A program made the position numbers and the translations under genes. Positions 23,596 through 32,368 of a stretch of DNA of 42,661 nucleotides are shown one piece after another (position 1 is the first letter of the stretch; the number at the start of each line of letters is the position of its first letter). Source of the stretch: Acidimicrobiales bacterium (GTDB lineage Bacteria > Actinomycetota > Acidimicrobiia > Acidimicrobiales > RAAP-2); the NCBI GenBank assembly GCA_017883135.1, contig JADGOE010000019.1, positions 1-42,661 on the forward strand, in the 5' to 3' direction. The notes beneath the pieces were generated by a model. It had not been told where the DNA came from and made no database searches. It saw nothing but the letters and a program-made list of their open reading frames with translations.

Positions 23596-23705
23596 AGCGC
23601 GTTGTTTTTACCACGCAGCCCTGCCTGGAAGCACATCGAGGAGCTGTCGCCGCCCAGTGCCAAACGGGGCCGCTCCACCCGGTGTCGTCCAGCCCGACGG
23701 GCACC

Positions 23706-23711
23706 TACCAT
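23706..23711 (+). promoter_or_regulatory. candidate -10 hexamer TACCAT for a leaderless transcript
   Basis: TACCAT lies exactly 7 nt before the GTG at 23719, and no Shine-Dalgarno is present. This is the layout expected when transcription starts at the first base of the start codon. No clear -35 is seen. Confidence 0.4.
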
Positions 23712-23718
23712 TGACGCC

Positions 23719-25137
23719 GTGAGTTCCCCTCCGTCCCACGATCCCGCAGGCACGCCGAACGGCGCCGGCGACGTGGGGTCCATCGGATCCGCCGCGGCCG
23801 GCGGTGCCGACCACGTCCACGACGTCCTGGTGGTGGGTGGCGGTCCCTCGGGATCCTCGTGCGCCTACTGGTTGGCCGAGGCCGGGTGGGACGTGGCCGT
23901 GGTGGAGAAGAAGGTGTTCCCCCGGGTGAAGACGTGCGGCGACGGGCTGACCCCGCGCGCGGTCCGCCAGATCGCCGACATGGGGATCGAGGGGGCGCTG
24001 GCCGGAGCCCACCGCTCCACCGGTCTGCGTGCCCACGCCTTCGGCAGGGTCCTCGACCTCCCGTGGCCCGAGCACCCCAGCTTCCCCTCCTACGGCTACG
24101 TGGTCACCCGCCACGACCTCGACGCCCTGGTCAGCGAGCGCGCGGTCAAGGCAGGTGCCATCGTGTGGCAGGGGACCGAGGCGCTCGAGCCGATCATCGA
24201 GGAGCCGGTCCCGGTGTCGGGCGCAGTGGGAACGCTCTCTGCCGGCACGGTTGCCCGGCGCCGGCAACTCCCGACCTCGGTGCTGCCTCGCTGCGTCGGG
24301 GCAGTGGTGAGGGAGAGGGCCTCCGGCGCCACCCGCTCGGTGCGCGCCAGGTACGTGGTGGTGGCCGACGGGGCCAACTCGCGCTTCGGCCGGGCCCTCG
24401 GCACGGAGCGGAACCGCAGCCAGCCCATGGGGATGGCCCTACGCGGGTACTACTCCTCGCCCGGCCACGACCGGCCGTTCCTCGAATCGCACCTCGACAT
24501 CCGCGACGGGGAGGGCAAGGTGGTCCCCGGGTACGGCTGGATCTTCCCGCTGGGCGACGGACGAGTCAACGTCGGTGTGGGCCTGCTCTCCACCGACCGG
24601 CGCTGGAAGGGCGTCAACACCTCGACGCTGATGGACCACTTCGTGGCCTGGGCCCCCAAGGAGTGGGAGCTGTCGCCGTCGACCTGCCTCGGACCCCCCA
24701 GCGGCGGCAAGCTGCCGATGGGTCTGGCCGTCGGCCCCAGGGTGGGGCCCACCACGTTGGTGGTGGGCGACGCCGCCGGCTCGATCAATCCGTTCAACGG
24801 CGAGGGGATCGCCTACGGCTACGAGACCGGTCGGATCGCCGCGGCTTCGCTGGGCGAGGCGCTCTCCGGCGACGGGGTCGAGGCACTGTGGCGTTACGAG
24901 GTCCGGCTGGAGGAGGCGTACGGCCTCTACTACCGGGTGGCCAGGGCCTTCATCCGGGTGATCAGCCGGCCGGAGCTGATGAAATTGTGTGTCGGGACGG
25001 GCATGTACTCCGAGCCGCTGATGACCTGGATCCTCAGGATTATGGCCAACCTGCTCCGTCCGGACGAGACCGGCCCGGCCGAGGCCGCCTACCGGGCCCT
25101 CGCCCTCATCGCCCGCTTGGCCCCCGAGGGTTCTTGA
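23719..25137 (+). CDS. geranylgeranyl reductase family flavoprotein (likely menaquinone side-chain reductase)
   Basis: FAD-dependent oxidoreductase of 472 residues. The N-terminal dinucleotide motif VLVVGGGPSGSSCAYWLAE starts near residue 37, followed by KTCGDGLTPRA (the CGG/CGD block of the family) and the second FAD motif VVGDAAGSINPFNGEGI. Members reduce isoprenoid double bonds, such as MenJ in mycobacteria, which saturates one unit of menaquinone. Location divergent from nuoA supports a role in preparing the quinone used by complex I (inference). I use GTG 23719 because upstream in-frame sequence lacks conservation and a TACCAT hexamer precedes it by 7 nt. An archaeal-type lipid reductase is the alternative. 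Confidence 0.82.
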   Translation: MSSPPSHDPAGTPNGAGDVGSIGSAAAGGADHVHDVLVVGGGPSGSSCAYWLAEAGWDVAVVEKKVFPRVKTCGDGLTPRAVRQIADMGIEGALAGAHRSTGLRAHAFGRVLDLPWPEHPSFPSYGYVVTRHDLDALVSERAVKAGAIVWQGTEALEPIIEEPVPVSGAVGTLSAGTVARRRQLPTSVLPRCVGAVVRERASGATRSVRARYVVVADGANSRFGRALGTERNRSQPMGMALRGYYSSPGHDRPFLESHLDIRDGEGKVVPGYGWIFPLGDGRVNVGVGLLSTDRRWKGVNTSTLMDHFVAWAPKEWELSPSTCLGPPSGGKLPMGLAVGPRVGPTTLVVGDAAGSINPFNGEGIAYGYETGRIAAASLGEALSGDGVEALWRYEVRLEEAYGLYYRVARAFIRVISRPELMKLCVGTGMYSEPLMTWILRIMANLLRPDETGPAEAAYRALALIARLAPEGS

Positions 25138-25188: not shown

Positions 25189-27282
25189 CTACTTGCCCAC
25201 CGAGGCGGCCACTCGTCCGACGATCGCGTTGTAGGCCGGGACGAACGCGCTCGAAGGAATCGGGGGGCCGTTGGTCGTGGGCTCCAGACGGGTCATGACG
25301 CGGCCCCCGAAGATGAAGGCCTCCCCCAGCACCTCGGTGCCCTTCGCAGGGAGGGTGATCGTCGTCACGTAGCCGAAGGACTTCACCCCGGTCGGCACCG
25401 GAAGGTCGACCTGTTGCACCTGGGCGGTGGAGCCCGGCACTGCCGCCGCTGCAATGGTGTTGTGGTACTGGCCGAAGCACGCGGTGAAGTTGGGATTGGC
25501 GAAGGGAACTGCCAGGGCGTCGACCTGGGCAGGTGTCCGGAGCGCCGTCGTCACCGACGCCATCTGGATGTTCGGGTCCGACCCGCTCTGGAATGTCGCC
25601 GACGGGACGACGGAGATCAGGCCGGAGATGCCCGCGGCGCCGAACAGTTCCGAGATCGCCGGAGCCGAGGAGCCCAGACACGCGGCGAGTGACCGGCCGG
25701 CCGCAACCTGGACGGCGACGGAGGTCAGGGGCAGGACGGACACCTGAGCAGGTGACGTGGTCGGGACCCATCCGGCGGGCAAGTCGCCGAGGCGCAGGTT
25801 GACCGAGGCCGCCAGCGCGGCGCCGGCCAGCGTCGGGCTGGGCGTCGTCGTGGTCGTCGTCGAGTTGTTGTTCTTCTTGGTGGCGAAGTAGGCGATCCCT
25901 CCGATGAGCGCAACCACGACGAGGATCAGCAACGCTGTCCGCGCAGAGCGGCTGCTCTTGGAGGTTGGCTTCTCCTTCGAAGCCGACGTCCCCTTCGGGG
26001 CAGTGGCCGTGGGTTGGTCCGGCGCATCCGCTTTGGAGTCGTCCCACTGCGCCTGCCCGGTGGCCGGGTCGATGGGCGGCTTCCAGGCAAATGCTGCGGG
26101 CGCTGCCGCGTCTGCGGGCGCCGCCGGCGCTCCGGGTGCCGGCTCGTCTACTGGCGTCTCCGGAGGGGGCAGGGGCAGGGTCGCCTTGAGCGGAACGGGA
26201 TCGATCGGAGGTTCGGCGGGCGGTTCCGACGGTGCCAGAGCTCCAGGCGGAGGAATGGGCGCGTCTGCAGGCGGGCGGGCCTTCCGCCAGCCCCTGGTCC
26301 TCTTGGGTGGCGAGTCGACGACGGGCGCAGGCTCGTGGCCCAGCGGTGGGTCGTCCCACGCCGTAGCAGCGGGCATCGCATCGGTCGACAGCTCCCATCC
26401 GGTCGTTCCGTCGGGCGTGCCGGGTGGCGGAGGTGGGGCCTGCGCCCCAGGAGCAGGCGGGGCGGACCCGGGCGTCGCGGCGGCCTCACGGGGGGGAGGT
26501 GGCGCTGCCGGAGGTCCGACGAACGCCGGTGCCGGCCCACCACCGGCGGCAGCATCAGGGGAGGGTGGTGGTGGTGGAACGGCGCCAAAGGGCGGAGTGG
26601 TCGGTGTCCGGTCGCCCACATCTCCCGAGCCTGCCCCCCTTGCGGCCAGCCCCGGTGCACTTCCGTTGGCGGAGCCCTTGACACGCGCGAACGAAGAAGC
26701 ACCAACCGCCGCGACGGAACCTGCTGCGGCCGAAGTGGAATGCGCTGTGTGGGTGCCGGCACCTTGAGCCGACGCCGGAGGAGGTGGAGGAGGAGGAGAT
26801 GACGAAGCGGCGCCGGCAGACGCAGCGGAGCTCGGAGCTCCCTCCCGGTCTTCCCTTGCTTCCCTTGCGGATGGGGACCCTGCAGTAGAAGCACCGGCAG
26901 TCGCGACGGAAGAAGCAGCCGGGCCCTTGTACCGTGCGAGCCACGCGGGGAGGGCCTGGTCGAGATAGGCCGCCTGTCCAGGCGAGACGGTTGCCGTCGG
27001 GAGCAGGAAGCGGATCGACTGGCCTCCCGAGGTGAGCTCCATCACCGCTGCATCCCGCCCGTCCGGCAGCACGATCTTCTCGCTGCAGCTCGCCGAATCG
27101 AGACCGGACCACACCAGCAACCTCTCGATCTGGGGTTGAGGACCCTGCACCGTGATGCCCGCCGCGGTGAACAGCAGGCTGAGGCCTTCGGTGGTCTTCG
27201 TCCCCCGCTCGGCATCGCCTGCCAAGGCCACGCCGCCGAGCTGCATGCCTTCGGGAGGCAGTTCCGTGATTCCGACGGTCAT
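25189..27282 (-). CDS. single-pass membrane protein: PH-like domain, Pro-rich linker, external LPxGW domain
   Basis: Unrecognised 697-residue protein. Residues 1-115 form a compact domain with LLVWSGLDSASCSE, VMELTSGGQSIRFLLP and ending in LPAWLARYKG. Residues about 116-430 are a disordered linker with runs of up to seven prolines. A basic stretch and a membrane segment at about 446-468 (LLILVVVALIGGIAYFATKK) follow, then a Thr run and an external domain (about 485-697) with DLPAGW at 500-505 and cysteines C535 and C602. The domain layout matches the next gene, and the external part also matches the lipoprotein at 37594-38325. Predicted topology is cytoplasmic N-terminus and exported C-terminus. 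The start at MTVG is chosen from GGAGGAG six nt upstream. The external domain is reminiscent of PknH-type sensor domains, not proven. Confidence 0.7.
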   Translation of the reverse strand: MTVGITELPPEGMQLGGVALAGDAERGTKTTEGLSLLFTAAGITVQGPQPQIERLLVWSGLDSASCSEKIVLPDGRDAAVMELTSGGQSIRFLLPTATVSPGQAAYLDQALPAWLARYKGPAASSVATAGASTAGSPSAREAREDREGAPSSAASAGAASSSPPPPPPPASAQGAGTHTAHSTSAAAGSVAAVGASSFARVKGSANGSAPGLAARGAGSGDVGDRTPTTPPFGAVPPPPPSPDAAAGGGPAPAFVGPPAAPPPPREAAATPGSAPPAPGAQAPPPPPGTPDGTTGWELSTDAMPAATAWDDPPLGHEPAPVVDSPPKRTRGWRKARPPADAPIPPPGALAPSEPPAEPPIDPVPLKATLPLPPPETPVDEPAPGAPAAPADAAAPAAFAWKPPIDPATGQAQWDDSKADAPDQPTATAPKGTSASKEKPTSKSSRSARTALLILVVVALIGGIAYFATKKNNNSTTTTTTPSPTLAGAALAASVNLRLGDLPAGWVPTTSPAQVSVLPLTSVAVQVAAGRSLAACLGSSAPAISELFGAAGISGLISVVPSATFQSGSDPNIQMASVTTALRTPAQVDALAVPFANPNFTACFGQYHNTIAAAAVPGSTAQVQQVDLPVPTGVKSFGYVTTITLPAKGTEVLGEAFIFGGRVMTRLEPTTNGPPIPSSAFVPAYNAIVGRVAASVGK

Positions 27283-27444
27283 GTACCACTCCTCCATTGC
27301 CGGAATCCTTCTCCGGCTCGATTCATCGGCTTTGGCAATCCTGCCGTCCCACACGTCGACCCGGCAAGCGCCGTCGGCCATCCGGCGCACACCATGACCG
27401 GCCTTTGCACCCTATTCATACTGTCCTACGGCTGACCATTTCGG

Positions 27445-27457
27445 TCGGACCGTCCGA
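27445..27457. promoter_or_regulatory. 13-bp perfect palindrome TCGGAC-C-GTCCGA
   Basis: The palindrome lies in the 196-bp gap between the two paralogous membrane-protein genes, 21 bp past the stop of the upstream one. On the - strand, TATGAAT and TAGGGT hexamers (27415-27425 region) lie between it and the downstream gene and could be a promoter. It may be an operator or part of a terminator stem; there is no direct support for either. Confidence 0.25.
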
Positions 27458-27478
27458 TCCCCGCCGCCCGGGACCAGG

Positions 27479-29002
27479 TCAGACGACGACACTCTTGCCC
27501 TGGCTTGCCACCCGTTGCTCGAAGGCGGAGACGGATGCCGTCAGGACATCGCTCGGGATCTGGCCTCCAATGGCAAACGCCTGCAGCTGCGCTTCGACCC
27601 GATCGCTCCCGAGGGAGGCCGCCTCGACCTCGACCGCCAGAGGCGTCGACCGGTCGGAAAGCGTGATGCTCATCAACAGGCCCACCGTCTGCTCGCCGGC
27701 AACGGACGTGAGGTGCACCACCCAAGCGGTAGATCGGCCTGGCAGTTCGTTCCCCCCGGTTGCGTCGTTGACCCCGAGTTGCAGCTCCGAGGCCACCGCA
27801 GCAGCCGTGCACTGGGGATACCTGGGGAGGGAGAACAGCGAGAAGTCCTTCAGTTCGTCGGTGTGGGTGCGAACGATGTCGGCAGCCGTCTGGAGTTCCA
27901 ACGCGTAGCCCGACTGGGTGGCCGAAGACGGACCGACGAAGATCGGAGACGAGGACTGAGCAGTCTGGTCTGCGGCCTGTCCGCCGAGCAGAACCGCACC
28001 CTGGTCGTCGGTGACGCCCATGCACCGGGCAAATGTCGTAGTGATCTGCTGCTCGACGGTGCGATCGTGGCGGGAGTTGCCAGCTCCCGAGTTGTTGGTG
28101 GAAACGCTCCATCCACGGGGTAGGTCGCGGCTGGTCAGCATCAAGGAATCGGCCAGGCGTTGGTCGGAAGAGAGCCGTGGAGCCGAAGGGGCCACCGCCG
28201 ACTGCTTGGTGCCCGTAGCCGACAGACCGGACGCCAGCCCGACGGCGGCGATCAGGAGCGCGATCGCCATCAGCAACGTGGCAAGCCGCCGGCGGCGTGT
28301 CCGCCTCGGTGGCGCCTGGCCCATGGGATCTGCGGGGTCGCCGGGGGGGCGGTAAGCGGAGGGCCCAACCCAGTAGGGCCTGTCGCCGTCGGGCATCGGG
28401 CCGTAGGGCATGGGGCCGTAGGGCATGGGGCCGTAGGGCATCGGGCCAGGCACGTCACGGGAAGCGCCACCGGCACCGAACGACGGTGGGTGGGCGCCGA
28501 TCGGACCGGGTGCCTCCGGAGGGCCGGGCAGGATCGGGGGCACGGGGGGAACGGGCGCCGACCGCGACTGCACGGTCTGTTCCGGCCGACGGGCGAGCCA
28601 CGCCCGGAGCGCAGAGATCTGGACCGTCCGCGACGGATCGGTGTCGATCAGGAACTGCATCACCCCGCCTGCTGATGCCAGCTCGACCGGCGTCACCGCG
28701 CGGCCGGCCGGTTGCGACCCTGCCTCTCCGATCGATATCGACGTCACATCAGACCATCGCACCAGTTGCTGATCCGCTCGATCCGGCCTGGCGACCGCAG
28801 CTCCTCGGTCGTCGAACGCGACAACAACCCGCTCCGGGCGGTCCGATCCCGAGCCTGCTCCCCCCACCACGGTGACGCCCTCGAACCGAAATCCGGCTGC
28901 ACTCGGCACGGCCTGGGGCGGAAGTGGAACGGCACCGTCACCAGACGGCTCGGCCGGGTCGGCCCCGCCGGTCGGCCCCTCCTGATCGTCTGTCGTGTTC
29001 AT
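27479..29002 (-). CDS. single-pass membrane protein, paralogue of the 25189-27282 product
   Basis: Unrecognised 507-residue protein with the same plan as its neighbour. Residues about 30-150 form the PH-like domain (LVRWSDVTSISIGEAG, VELASAGGVMQFLI, ALRAWLARRPEQ), then a Pro/Gly linker with four near-identical GPMPYG units, an RRTRRRR stop-transfer stretch, a membrane segment at 240-260 and an external domain. The last has DLPRGW at 293-298 and cysteines C327 and C398. The N-terminal ATG at 29002 has GAGGA upstream; an in-frame start at 29023 is less likely. It starts 33 bp after hemL and may be read from the hem transcript. A sensor or envelope role is inference only. Confidence 0.7.
   Translation of the reverse strand: MNTTDDQEGPTGGADPAEPSGDGAVPLPPQAVPSAAGFRFEGVTVVGGAGSGSDRPERVVVAFDDRGAAVARPDRADQQLVRWSDVTSISIGEAGSQPAGRAVTPVELASAGGVMQFLIDTDPSRTVQISALRAWLARRPEQTVQSRSAPVPPVPPILPGPPEAPGPIGAHPPSFGAGGASRDVPGPMPYGPMPYGPMPYGPMPDGDRPYWVGPSAYRPPGDPADPMGQAPPRRTRRRRLATLLMAIALLIAAVGLASGLSATGTKQSAVAPSAPRLSSDQRLADSLMLTSRDLPRGWSVSTNNSGAGNSRHDRTVEQQITTTFARCMGVTDDQGAVLLGGQAADQTAQSSSPIFVGPSSATQSGYALELQTAADIVRTHTDELKDFSLFSLPRYPQCTAAAVASELQLGVNDATGGNELPGRSTAWVVHLTSVAGEQTVGLLMSITLSDRSTPLAVEVEAASLGSDRVEAQLQAFAIGGQIPSDVLTASVSAFEQRVASQGKSVVV
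28398..28442 (-). repeat. three tandem 15-bp units encoding GPMPY
   Basis: The + strand unit GGGCCGTAGGGCATG occurs at 28398-28412, 28413-28427 and, with one change, 28428-28442, with partial units on both sides. In the protein it gives repeated GPMPY in the linker between the cytoplasmic domain and the membrane segment. Near-perfect DNA identity implies recent expansion, so the copy number may vary between strains. Confidence 0.8.
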
Positions 29003-29035: not shown

Positions 29036-30355
29036 TCAGTCGGCAAGAGCATCCACGATGGCCTCCGCCGCCACTTCGAGCGCATGGTCCAACTCGGGCA
29101 CGCCATGGGCCATCGACGGAAATGCCACCTCATAGGGCCCGGGAGCGAGCGCCACCCCTCGTGCGAGCATCGCTCGGAAGAACCGCGCGTAGATCCCGGT
29201 GCCCGCCGATGCCATTGCACCGTCGTAGTCGCGGACCGGCCCGGAGCCCTCCGGCACGAAGAACACGCCGAACAGCGGCCCCACCACCGGGACCAGCGCC
29301 TCGAGCGGCCTCCCCTGCCCATCCACACGACCCGACGCCGCCAGCGCGTCGGTCAGCACTCCTTGCAGCGTCGCCGCGAACCTCGCGACCCGGCTCGACA
29401 ATTCGGCGTACGACAAGGGCTCGAGCATCCCCAGCACTGCGAGTCCGGCTGCGGTGGCAAGCGGATTGCCCGACAAAGTGCCTGCTTGGTAGACGGGGCC
29501 GGCCGGGGCCAGCACCGACAGTACGTCGGCTCGACCGCCGAACGCTCCCACAGGAAGCCCTCCCCCGATCACCTTCCCGAAACACCACAGGTCGGGGCGC
29601 ACGCCAGACCACTCGGAGGCACCACCCTCACCGAGCCGGAAGCCGGTGATCACCTCGTCGAAGACCAGCAGCGCCCCCACCGCGTCGCACGCGACGCGCA
29701 ACCCCTCGAGGAAGCCGTCCGACGGCACCACCAGGCCCATGTTCGCGGCCACCGCCTCGACGATCACACACGCCACTTGGTCATCGAGGTCGGGAATCCG
29801 GTTGTAGGGGGCCACCACCGTGTCGGCCACGGCCGGTGCCGGCACGCCGGCGGAGTCCGGAAGGCCGAGCGTCGCCACGCCACTTCCCCCGCCGGCCAAG
29901 AGCCCGTCGGAGTGGCCGTGGTAGCAGCCCGCGAACTTCACGATGCGTGACCTGCCGGTGAAGCCCCGCGCCACCCGGATGACGCTCATGGCCGCCTCCG
30001 TCCCCGACGACACCAGACGAACCTGTTGGCAGCCATCGACCCGGGTACAGATGGCCTCGGCGAGCAAGACCTCTCCCTCGGTGGGTGCCCCGAACGTGGT
30101 CCCCTTCGTGGCTGCTTCACGTACCGCCCGGACCACGGCGGGATCGGCATGACCGAGGATGGATGCCCCGTAGGACTGCACGAAATCGAGCAGCTTGTTG
30201 CCGTCGGCATCCCACACGTAGGCGCCCTCCCCTCGTGCCACGAAGTAGGGGTGGCCCCCCACCGAGCGGAACGATCGGACCGGCGAGTTGACCCCACCCG
30301 GTATGACCTTGCATGCCCGTTCGAACAGCTCTGCCGAGCGGGCGCTCTCAACCAC
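29036..30355 (-). CDS. hemL: glutamate-1-semialdehyde 2,1-aminomutase
   Basis: PLP enzyme making 5-aminolevulinate from glutamate-1-semialdehyde, the product of HemA encoded upstream (439 residues). N-terminal IPGGVNSPVRSF, SGTEAAMSVIRVAR, DEVITGFRLGEGG and the cofactor lysine in FGKVIGGGLPVGAFGG are all typical. The GTG start at 30355 overlaps the end of hemB, and a GAGG lies upstream within the hemB coding sequence. It ends 33 bp before the membrane-protein gene. Confidence 0.96.
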   Translation of the reverse strand: MVESARSAELFERACKVIPGGVNSPVRSFRSVGGHPYFVARGEGAYVWDADGNKLLDFVQSYGASILGHADPAVVRAVREAATKGTTFGAPTEGEVLLAEAICTRVDGCQQVRLVSSGTEAAMSVIRVARGFTGRSRIVKFAGCYHGHSDGLLAGGGSGVATLGLPDSAGVPAPAVADTVVAPYNRIPDLDDQVACVIVEAVAANMGLVVPSDGFLEGLRVACDAVGALLVFDEVITGFRLGEGGASEWSGVRPDLWCFGKVIGGGLPVGAFGGRADVLSVLAPAGPVYQAGTLSGNPLATAAGLAVLGMLEPLSYAELSSRVARFAATLQGVLTDALAASGRVDGQGRPLEALVPVVGPLFGVFFVPEGSGPVRDYDGAMASAGTGIYARFFRAMLARGVALAPGPYEVAFPSMAHGVPELDHALEVAAEAIVDALAD

Positions 30356-31528: not shown

Positions 31529-32368
31529 CTACTGCTGTTGCTGTTGCTGTTGCTGTTCGCGGCGGTCTCGCGGTCCGTGGCCCGAACCAGCCAGGACGTC
31601 GAGGAGTGCCTCGACCAGCCCGTCGATGGTCTGCACCTCCGCCTCCACCGTCACGTCGAGCCCGGCCTCTCGGACGGAGGCCGAGGTAATCGGGCCGATG
31701 GTGGCAATCACGGGCGGAATGCCGTCACGACCGAGGAGATCGATCGTGCGGTCCACCGTCGATGACGAGGTGAAGACAACGGCGTCCGCCCGACCAGCCG
31801 AAGCGACCGCCTCGGGACCGGGGTCGCCGGCCTGGGTTCGGTAGGCCACCACTTCGTCGACCGTCCACCCTTTGGAACGGAGCCCGGATGCCAATCCACC
31901 CCGGACCACCTCCGCCCGGGGAAACAGCACGGCGCCGGCAACCGCCACCCTCCCCGGCCGGTCGGGATCGCCAAGGTCCGGACCCGGGAAGGCCTCGGCC
32001 AAGGCCACCGCGGCCGAGACGTCCGGCACCAGGTCGGGGACGATACCGGCGTCGATCAGTGTGCGGGCCGTTCCCTCCCCCACCGCAGCCCAGCGCACCG
32101 ACGGCGGGACCGCGCGCCCACCGATCGAGGCCAGCAACCGGACGGCGGCATTGGAAGAGGTGACGGCCACCCATCGGTACGCGCCCGACGTCAGCCGGCG
32201 GGACGCGTCGGCCAGGGCCGCTCCACCGTCAGAAGGCTCGCCGATGGCGATGACCGGAAGTTCGACCACCTCAGCTCCCAGGGACACCAGGCGATCCACC
32301 AGGCGCGGCGCCTGGGCCCGGGAGCGGGTCACCACCACGGTCCGGCCTGCCAAAGGGAGAGTCTTCAA
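31529..32368 (-). CDS. hemD: uroporphyrinogen-III synthase with a polyglutamine C-terminus
   Basis: Cyclises hydroxymethylbilane with inversion of ring D (279 residues). LAGRTVVVTRSRAQAPRLVDRL begins the first domain; WVAVTSSNAAVRLLA and VVFTSSSTVDRTIDLL are the paired TS(S/N) segments of the two domains. The protein ends in EQQQQQQQQ, eight glutamines from a CAA/CAG run. A TTG start is inferred from a TTGA overlap with the cobA stop, because no ATG or GTG fits the family N-terminus better. In many actinobacteria this domain is fused to CobA; here they are separate but overlapping. Confidence 0.85.
   Translation of the reverse strand: MKTLPLAGRTVVVTRSRAQAPRLVDRLVSLGAEVVELPVIAIGEPSDGGAALADASRRLTSGAYRWVAVTSSNAAVRLLASIGGRAVPPSVRWAAVGEGTARTLIDAGIVPDLVPDVSAAVALAEAFPGPDLGDPDRPGRVAVAGAVLFPRAEVVRGGLASGLRSKGWTVDEVVAYRTQAGDPGPEAVASAGRADAVVFTSSSTVDRTIDLLGRDGIPPVIATIGPITSASVREAGLDVTVEAEVQTIDGLVEALLDVLAGSGHGPRDRREQQQQQQQQ
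31532..31555 (-). repeat. (CAACAG)n trinucleotide run coding polyglutamine
   Basis: Eight consecutive Gln codons alternating mainly CAA and CAG close the hemD gene just before its TAG. Such a short-period repeat can change length by slippage in whole codons without shifting frame. Confidence 0.85.

Follow-up and report, generated by a model that had tools for sequence, protein, structure and literature searches.

The window (the whole stretch of DNA analysed, 42,661 nucleotides, from an Acidimicrobiales bacterium) carries, as a preliminary description had it, two genes spanning 25189-29002, which we call P1 and P2; both lie on the minus strand. Their domains, linkers and neighbours are placed as follows.

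23602 to 25137 (start approximate), plus strand: gene for a flavoprotein of the geranylgeranyl reductase family, convergent with and downstream of P1; conserved neighbour
25189 to 27282, minus strand: gene of P1 (697 aa), encoding a PH-fold domain, a linker rich in Pro and Ala, a transmembrane segment and a PknH-sensor-like ectodomain
25192 to 25836, minus strand: P1 extracytoplasmic PknH-sensor-like domain, with an invariant Cys pair at 25678-25680 and 25477-25479
25879 to 25938, minus strand: single transmembrane segment of P1, from hydrophobicity
25939 to 26922, minus strand: Pro/Ala-rich cytoplasmic linker of P1, about 330 residues, of low complexity and presumably disordered
26041 to 26073, minus strand: P1 linker motif IDPATGQAQWD
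26281 to 26304, minus strand: P1 linker basic motif KRTRGWRK
26341 to 26358, minus strand: P1 linker motif WDDPPL
26923 to 27279, minus strand: PH-fold domain at the N-terminus of P1 (119 aa), with a net acidic charge; its identity to the P1-type domains of 16 relatives is 66-94%
27479 to 29002, minus strand: gene of P2 (507 aa), the tandem paralogue of P1
27482 to 28225, minus strand: extracytoplasmic domain of P2, a paralogue of the P1 one, with a Cys pair at 28022-28024 and 27809-27811
28226 to 28285, minus strand: single transmembrane segment of P2; RRTRRRR just before it suggests that the N-terminus is inside
28385 to 28447, minus strand: 15-bp repeat in the P2 linker, encoding GPMPY/GPMPD four times
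28590 to 28927, minus strand: PH-like domain at the N-terminus of P2, assigned through its homology to P1
29036 to 30355, minus strand: hemL, for glutamate-1-semialdehyde aminomutase, immediately upstream of P2 at a distance of 33 nt; conserved neighbour

Both open frames begin with ATG (at 27282 in P1, at 29002 in P2) and end in stops at 25189 and 27479, respectively. The P1 start is supported by a GGAGGAG lying 6 bases 5' of the ATG and by the conserved beginning of its relatives, T(V/I)xxxxLPPEGM. A scan for promoters and terminators gave nothing exceeding shuffles, and a Pfam and family look-up of the whole of P1 and P2 yielded no match above a cut-off.

Local alignment of the two N-terminal domains scored 127 (shuffles 29.9 +/- 5.4) and that of the two outer domains 97 (shuffles 36.5 +/- 6.2), with none of 2,000 shuffles as high in either case, and an HMM built solely from 17 P1-type N-domains picked out P2 from 2,166 open frames at E 3.2e-8. 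Both domains are thus homologous between the two proteins, which bears out the ancient duplication proposed in the preliminary description: by sequence, P1 and P2 are tandem paralogues, the products of an old duplication. The shared motifs that had suggested it stand in part, as (V/M)ELxSxGxxxxFL and AWLAR are found literally in both N-termini, but LVxWSxxxS in P2 only (LVRWSDVTS), the aligned place in P1 reading LLVWSGLDS.

The AlphaFold model of the P1 N-domain (pLDDT 83.4) has seven strands and a C-terminal helix, that is, the barrel closed by a helix that defines the PH superfamily fold. Against solved structures (VIA-align), the PH-GRAM domain of MTMR6 came best (Z 11.6, rmsd 1.8 over 89), with ARAP3 (Z 11.0) and SSRP1 (Z 10.7) among the further matches, and the best 50 rows were all PH, GRAM, FERM and PH-like domains. 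The cytoplasmic PH-like domain that had been proposed is thus recovered, in P1 by its model and in P2 by sequence homology, and the two N-termini are neither unrelated nor disordered. A profile of the domain, run over 396 genomes sampled from the phylum with 11 candidates scored per genome (all counts from such genome searches being lower bounds), gave at least two matches outside the class, at E 4.4e-4 and 7.8e-4. Both overlap the Pfam family bPH_6, one at E 2.4e-11, over the cut-off, and the other at E 9.9e-4, with 19.5 bits against a cut-off of 22. For none of the 36 members of the N-domain alignment did a Pfam bPH model match with an E-value of 1 or lower, and one of ten N-domains from a sister genus matched bPH_6 at E 0.065, short of the curated cut-off for bPH families. 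A PDB sequence search with the two profiles returned only rows at E 0.26 or worse. The P1-type domain is net acidic in all 17 rows (-3 to -7), which argues against phosphoinositide binding, a function of a basic beta1-beta2 pocket in PH domains that have it, and suggests a protein-binding rather than a lipid-binding PH domain.

Between this domain and the membrane lie the spacers noted from the start, the long proline-rich linker of P1 and the shorter one of P2 with its four GPMP(Y/D) repeats. Three P1 linker patterns recur among relatives, that of WDDPPL in 7 of the 16 full linkers (and in none of 500 composition shuffles), the basic motif in 6 of 16 (shuffle mean 0.00) and [IVLR]DPxTG in 8 of 16 (shuffle mean 0.03), counts that are inflated by shared ancestry among the linkers. 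A single hydrophobic segment exceeds the threshold in P1, and likewise in P2, which suggests that both are single-pass membrane proteins with the N-terminus inside. As the charge flanking the P1 segment is nearly balanced between the two sides, this orientation rests on the arginines of P2, on the Cys pair and on the absence of a further hydrophobic segment.

The external domain that had been proposed has, in its model (pLDDT 89.8 in P1), the fold of the sensor of a known receptor. The PknH sensor (4ESQ) was the best structural match, with Z 11.6 and rmsd 3.8 over 170 residues at 12% identity, and it was also first in Foldseek (E 1.1e-5), so that it tops both lists; TiME (Rv3705c) came second at Z 11.0, which under the rule of the tool counts as a tie. 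One Cys pair is invariant in all 41 ectodomain rows, and the outer domains of P1 and P2 hold no other cysteine. By sequence, the outer domain reached the cut-off of no Pfam family. Membership of the PknH_C family (PF14032) was considered and rejected: none of the 41 ectodomain members matched it at E 1 or better, no match was found in the bacterium's own genome, and hhalign gave a probability of 0.3% against 21 PknH_C domains, with a query alignment that includes the transmembrane segment. Judged from the model, the likeness to PknH is one of fold only.

The locus persists across several genera of the family, and one genome from another family has it too; the named carriers here are all metagenome assemblies. 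Of the 18 named loci, 16 have hemL upstream and 15 have the convergent reductase gene downstream, and every exception is a locus running off its contig. The gene hemB is also linked, beside hemL, with nuo genes beyond in the same order in most loci. Within the six genomes holding both genes, identity to the window is 73-94% for the inner and 44-55% for the outer domain of P1; for P2 it is 43-72% for the outer domain and, in four of the six, 31-49% for the inner one. The P2 inner domain of the fifth genome was found only with the P1 N-domain as query, and in the sixth (G036) no PH domain was found upstream of the P2 transmembrane segment. Conservation is therefore reversed between the paralogues, P1 being conserved inside and variable outside, P2 conserved outside and diverged inside. 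The P1 genes of G067 (L031), split between two frames around ambiguous bases, and of G082, split between two contigs, entered with their domains only. N-domains at the same locus in the sister genus were not recognised by HMMs (E above 2), but profile-profile comparison does recognise them (probability 92.7%, E 4.4e-7). In another genus (G030, L100), the gene between hemL and the reductase encodes no PH domain, with a short inner tail only. A 267-codon frame (row L099), whose cytoplasmic part is not PH, falls within the P1-type clade on a very long branch.

The same inner module is found on other proteins of the order. It is carried by GH18 enzymes in at least six genomes, is joined elsewhere to another outer domain, and occurs in short PH-transmembrane proteins with little outside, five of nine such loci adjoining a gene for a PilT-type ATPase. 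Since the module also sits on enzymes and short transmembrane proteins, outside-in signalling is not its general role. The signalling receptor envisaged in the preliminary description thus stands as to its PH-like inner and sensor-like outer parts, but family look-ups of P1 and P2 matched neither a kinase nor a cyclase nor any other output domain, and the adjoining genes include no kinase or regulator. The spread of the module over GH18 enzymes and short proteins that have next to nothing outside agrees at least as well with a general docking or regulatory module of the cytoplasm as with a dedicated receptor. One might speculate, with some reserve, that the class holds a modular transmembrane set built on one cytoplasmic PH platform (PknH-like sensors, GH18 enzymes, another outer domain, and short forms beside the PilT-type ATPase), all plugging into a shared cytoplasmic hub through which envelope sensing would be linked with pili and with the hydrolysis of wall or glycan, the PH domain being a receptor-coupled protein-docking module in bacteria.

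The architecture of P1 and P2, PH inside, then linker, transmembrane segment and PknH-like domain outside, is well supported; signalling, ligand and partner we infer. Our best reading, which we hold at about even chances, is a transmembrane coupler that resembles PknH but lacks its kinase, and in which the PH domain, on the cytoplasmic side, binds a conserved partner protein. The outer domain would bind a small molecule or a wall component in the envelope, and its state would reach the PH domain through clustering or exposure; the PH domain in turn would bind a conserved cytoplasmic protein and not a phosphoinositide. The linker would let the PH domain reach this partner and may carry short binding motifs. 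Overall, this would be a PknH with a docking domain in place of the kinase. Against it stand the lack of a matched output domain, the likeness to PknH in fold alone, the diverged inner domain of P2 and the PH-less gene of G030. P1 would hold the inner interface fixed while varying outside, and P2 would keep its outer domain while the inner one drifts; from these opposite patterns, the pair is probably a co-receptor or two inputs on one pathway.

The main rival, a passive tether or scaffold, is a serious but clearly less likely possibility. The PH domain would dock to a cytoplasmic machine and the outer domain to the wall or an envelope complex, with no signal passed. The GH18 enzymes of six genomes, the short proteins, in five of nine loci beside the PilT-type ATPase gene, and the better conservation of the inner than of the outer domain of P1 all speak for it; however, the best relative of the outer fold is the sensor domain of a receptor, and the P1 outer domain is variable, unlike a structural anchor. 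By analogy, the proteins might instead serve envelope assembly or transport, the outer domain forming rings or channels as is reported for TiME and the PH domain oligomerising as is reported for bacterial PHb rings. TiME, tied with the first structural match, is described as a ring-forming envelope tube (PMC11434571), and PHb domains are likewise described as forming C5 and C12 rings (PMC2817789), but likeness of fold does not show oligomerisation, and we consider this unlikely. The hemB-hemL linkage led us to consider also an ectodomain sensing a tetrapyrrole or a quinone. The near-constant synteny, which one genome of another family keeps, is in its favour, as is the best NCBIfam match of the reductase, menaquinone reductase MenJ, although below the cut-off. 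Housekeeping neighbours, however, often stay put through vertical inheritance, the nuo genes further out keep their order as well in most of the loci, and no binding motif was identified, which makes a heme- or quinone-linked sensor very improbable.

The preferred reading, the kinase-less coupler, has its closest counterpart in PknH of M. tuberculosis, which is laid out as a cytoplasmic domain, a linker, one transmembrane segment and an outer domain. The outer domain of P1 shares the fold of the PknH one, but P1 and P2 have no matched kinase and no sequence or profile match to PknH_C, and they have one invariant Cys pair where the PknH sensor is reported to have two intramolecular disulfides (PMC4118811, which cites Cavazos 2012). 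TiME (Rv3705c) and related PknH-like secreted proteins have a similar outer fold, but, as described, TiME has only an N-terminal hydrophobic helix before the domain and no cytoplasmic PH domain (PMC11434571). With the bacterial PH domains (PHb, DUF304, DUF1200, DUF2244; Pfam bPH), of which bPH_6 is the nearest family found by sequence, the P1 N-domain has the PH fold in common. For several PHb families, a membrane protein whose PH domain faces the cytoplasm is predicted, and it has been proposed that membrane transporters or pores oligomerise by way of PHb domains (PMC2817789); here, the PH domain is joined through a proline-rich linker to a folded ectodomain. A literature search, covering titles and the starts of abstracts and lying mostly outside subscription journals, found no description of this architecture. 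PH domains are familiar membrane-signalling modules of eukaryotes, and to our knowledge little is known of their roles in bacteria. In P1 and P2, a PH domain inside and a PknH-type domain outside together make up a receptor-shaped protein, kept at one chromosomal place in several actinobacterial genera, and the partner of the PH domain offers a testable handle on how these bacteria might link the state of the envelope to the cytoplasm when the receptor has no kinase of its own.

Two genes of the minus strand, encoding the membrane protein P1 and its tandem paralogue P2, lie in the window, which is on contig C30 of a 2.96 Mb genome bin of 126 contigs, in the following order.

hemL: stop at 29036, minus strand, 33 nt before P2
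P2 gene: 29002-27479, minus strand, 507 aa, 196 nt before P1
P1 gene: 27282-25189, minus strand, 697 aa, downstream of P2
geranylgeranyl-reductase-family gene (the reductase): 51 nt beyond P1, convergent to it

Beyond the reductase come nuoABCD. Neighbours were labelled from NCBIfam matches; those of hemL, hemB, cobA, nuoB, nuoC, nuoD and the reductase pass one or more model cut-offs, and those of nuoA and uroporphyrinogen-III synthase stay below theirs. The frame of the latter has a poly-Gln C-terminus, derived from a CAG-type repeat (31533-31557 of the window).

Both proteins consist of an inner N-terminal domain, a linker (long and Pro/Ala-rich in P1, shorter in P2), one transmembrane segment (TM) and an outer domain. 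The AlphaFold model of the P1 inner domain (36 aligned sequences; pLDDT 83.4, pTM 0.74) has strands at 12-19, 30-37, 41-45, 52-56, 62-70, 76-84 and 87-94 and a helix at 100-118, and Gly41 and Trp57 are invariant (36 of 36 rows). The 50 VIA-align matches listed for it are PH, GRAM, FERM and PH-like (SSRP1-type) domains, with Z reaching 11.6; Foldseek gave only three matches at E <= 0.001, one to a PTB domain (E 3.2e-4) and two to SsgB chains, the SsgB matches having TM-scores below 0.4. No member of the alignment is over a Pfam family cut-off. In a sample of 396 genomes of the phylum, the profile matched at least two outside the class (E 4.4e-4 for one, 7.8e-4 for the other), and each match overlaps a bacterial PH domain of the bPH_6 family, which in one case passes the Pfam cut-off and in the other falls just short of it. 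For P2 the folds are assigned by homology.

The ancient duplication proposed in the preliminary description is borne out. P1 and P2 align far above shuffles in their N-domains and also in their outer domains, and an HMM trained on 17 P1-type domains also picks up P2 (E 3.2e-8). In a midpoint-rooted tree of 41 outer domains, the seven P2-type rows, from two genera, form a single clade (support 100/98), adjoining a clade of 23 rows (99/99) made up of P1-type domains and the long-branch row L099; with the P2 clade spanning both genera, the duplication looks older than their split. Judged by residue identity in six genomes with both genes, the paralogues are under constraint at opposite ends.

Identity to the window in the six genomes carrying both genes (P1 inner; P1 outer; P2 outer; P2 inner)
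G067: 94%; 54%; 72%; 49%
G073: 90%; 50%; 60%; 31%
G082: 86% (73 residues only); 55%; 60%; 38%
G042: 92%; 55%; 54%; 36%
G036: 73%; 45%; 46%; not found (no PH domain upstream of the TM)
G052: 74%; 44%; 43%; 31% (only with the P1 inner domain as query)

The 18 named P1 loci come from metagenome assemblies labelled Acidimicrobiaceae, Acidimicrobiales, Actinomycetes or merely bacterium. Sixteen of them have hemL upstream in the same orientation and 15 have the reductase downstream and convergent, the contig ending too early in the two and three exceptions; P2 was found at six. In G378, a genome of another family, a PH-linker-TM-outer-domain protein is encoded between hemL, about 4 kb away, and the reductase. 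At six loci of sister genera (L044, L094-L098) the intervening gene has a diverged N-domain, related to the PH module (the P1-type inner domain) by profile comparison (probability 92.7%, E 4.4e-7; alignment of 10 domains, 6 from these loci), and at a seventh (L100, genome G030) it encodes the outer domain and a short inner tail only, with no PH domain. By profile search the outer domain occurs in at least 121 of 150 family genomes, in some away from the hemL-reductase locus, and in at least 44 of 296 genomes of the class, and the PH module in at least 35 of the 150; an earlier PH profile matched at least 11 of 395 class genomes, 6 of these in other families of the order.

The 16 full P1-type linkers are between 121 and 450 residues long, and Pro makes up 14-27% of them. 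Recurrent in them are the motifs [IVLR]DPxTG (8/16; mean 0.03 in 500 composition shuffles), W(D/E)(D/N)PPL (7/16; mean 0.00) and a basic (K/R)(K/R)xR..RK (6/16; mean 0.00), counts partly owed to common descent. P1 is easily broken in assemblies, since contigs of several relatives (eight loci: L085, L086, L087, L089, L092, L081, L082, L034) start or stop inside it, six of the eight in the Pro-rich linker.

The PH module is also carried by other proteins. In six genomes (G206, G447, G001, G016, G064, G082; loci L109, L115, L228, L229, L231, L232), of which two belong to other families of the order, it is N-terminal to a GH18 domain (GH18 matched at E 1.2e-19 or lower; PH part first detected at E 3.7e-9 to 8.7e-6), and the hydrophobic segment in between is over threshold in two of four measured proteins. 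Four PH-linker proteins of G021 and G034 (L224-L227) have a different outer domain, without a Pfam match, which looks LppX/LprG-like. In other genomes of the class, short PH-TM-type proteins adjoin a PilT-size T2SSE ATPase gene at five of nine loci (L187, L190, L193, L235, L237), four of these with a prepilin peptidase gene nearby, and have no such adjoining gene at L188, L194, L236 and L238 (the last cut off by a contig edge); a role as pilus accessory protein is possible. A PH gene lies near the best-scoring prepilin peptidase in 3 of 11 genomes, those three having been picked for their PH gene; the source genome is among the other eight. Its third PH paralogue (L140/L195; contig C60, 15413-15592, in a 262-codon frame) has a TM followed by a short IHLPFLGG tail, recurrent in relatives, and YdjC-like, SCP2, PIG-L and PspA neighbours. 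This reuse of the module argues for a putative cytoplasmic hub shared by its carriers.

The N-terminus is probably inside the cell, because RRTRRRR precedes the P2 TM, the Cys pair follows the TM and there is no second hydrophobic segment. The PH domain, net acidic and in P1 more conserved than the outer domain, would for these reasons dock on a protein, and the outer domain may sense a ligand or the wall. The explanation we favour, a kinase-less PknH-like transmembrane coupler, stands at about an even chance; a passive tether is its main rival and seems less likely.

In the titles and abstract openings covered by a partial literature search, no PH-TM-PknH-like protein is described. Bacterial PH domains have been reported, some of them in membrane-bound families that place the domain inside the cell, and a pore or oligomerisation role has been put forward (PMC2817789). 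The outer domain model (41 rows; pLDDT 89.8, pTM 0.80) has two invariant Cys (41 of 41 rows), and its best solved structural relative is the sensor domain of PknH (Z 11.6; rmsd 3.8 over 170), described as containing two disulfides and, as a presumed small-ligand site, a V-shaped cleft (PMC4118811). Because profile comparison with 21 PknH_C (PF14032) domains gave a probability of only 0.3%, it is not filed in that family: it would work like PknH_C but is not assignable to it. Next come TiME (Z 11.0), described as an envelope tube (PMC11434571), and an Rv0999 orthologue (Z 10.2), followed by PsbP (Z 9.3), LpqN (Z 7.7) and Mog1 (Z 6.5).
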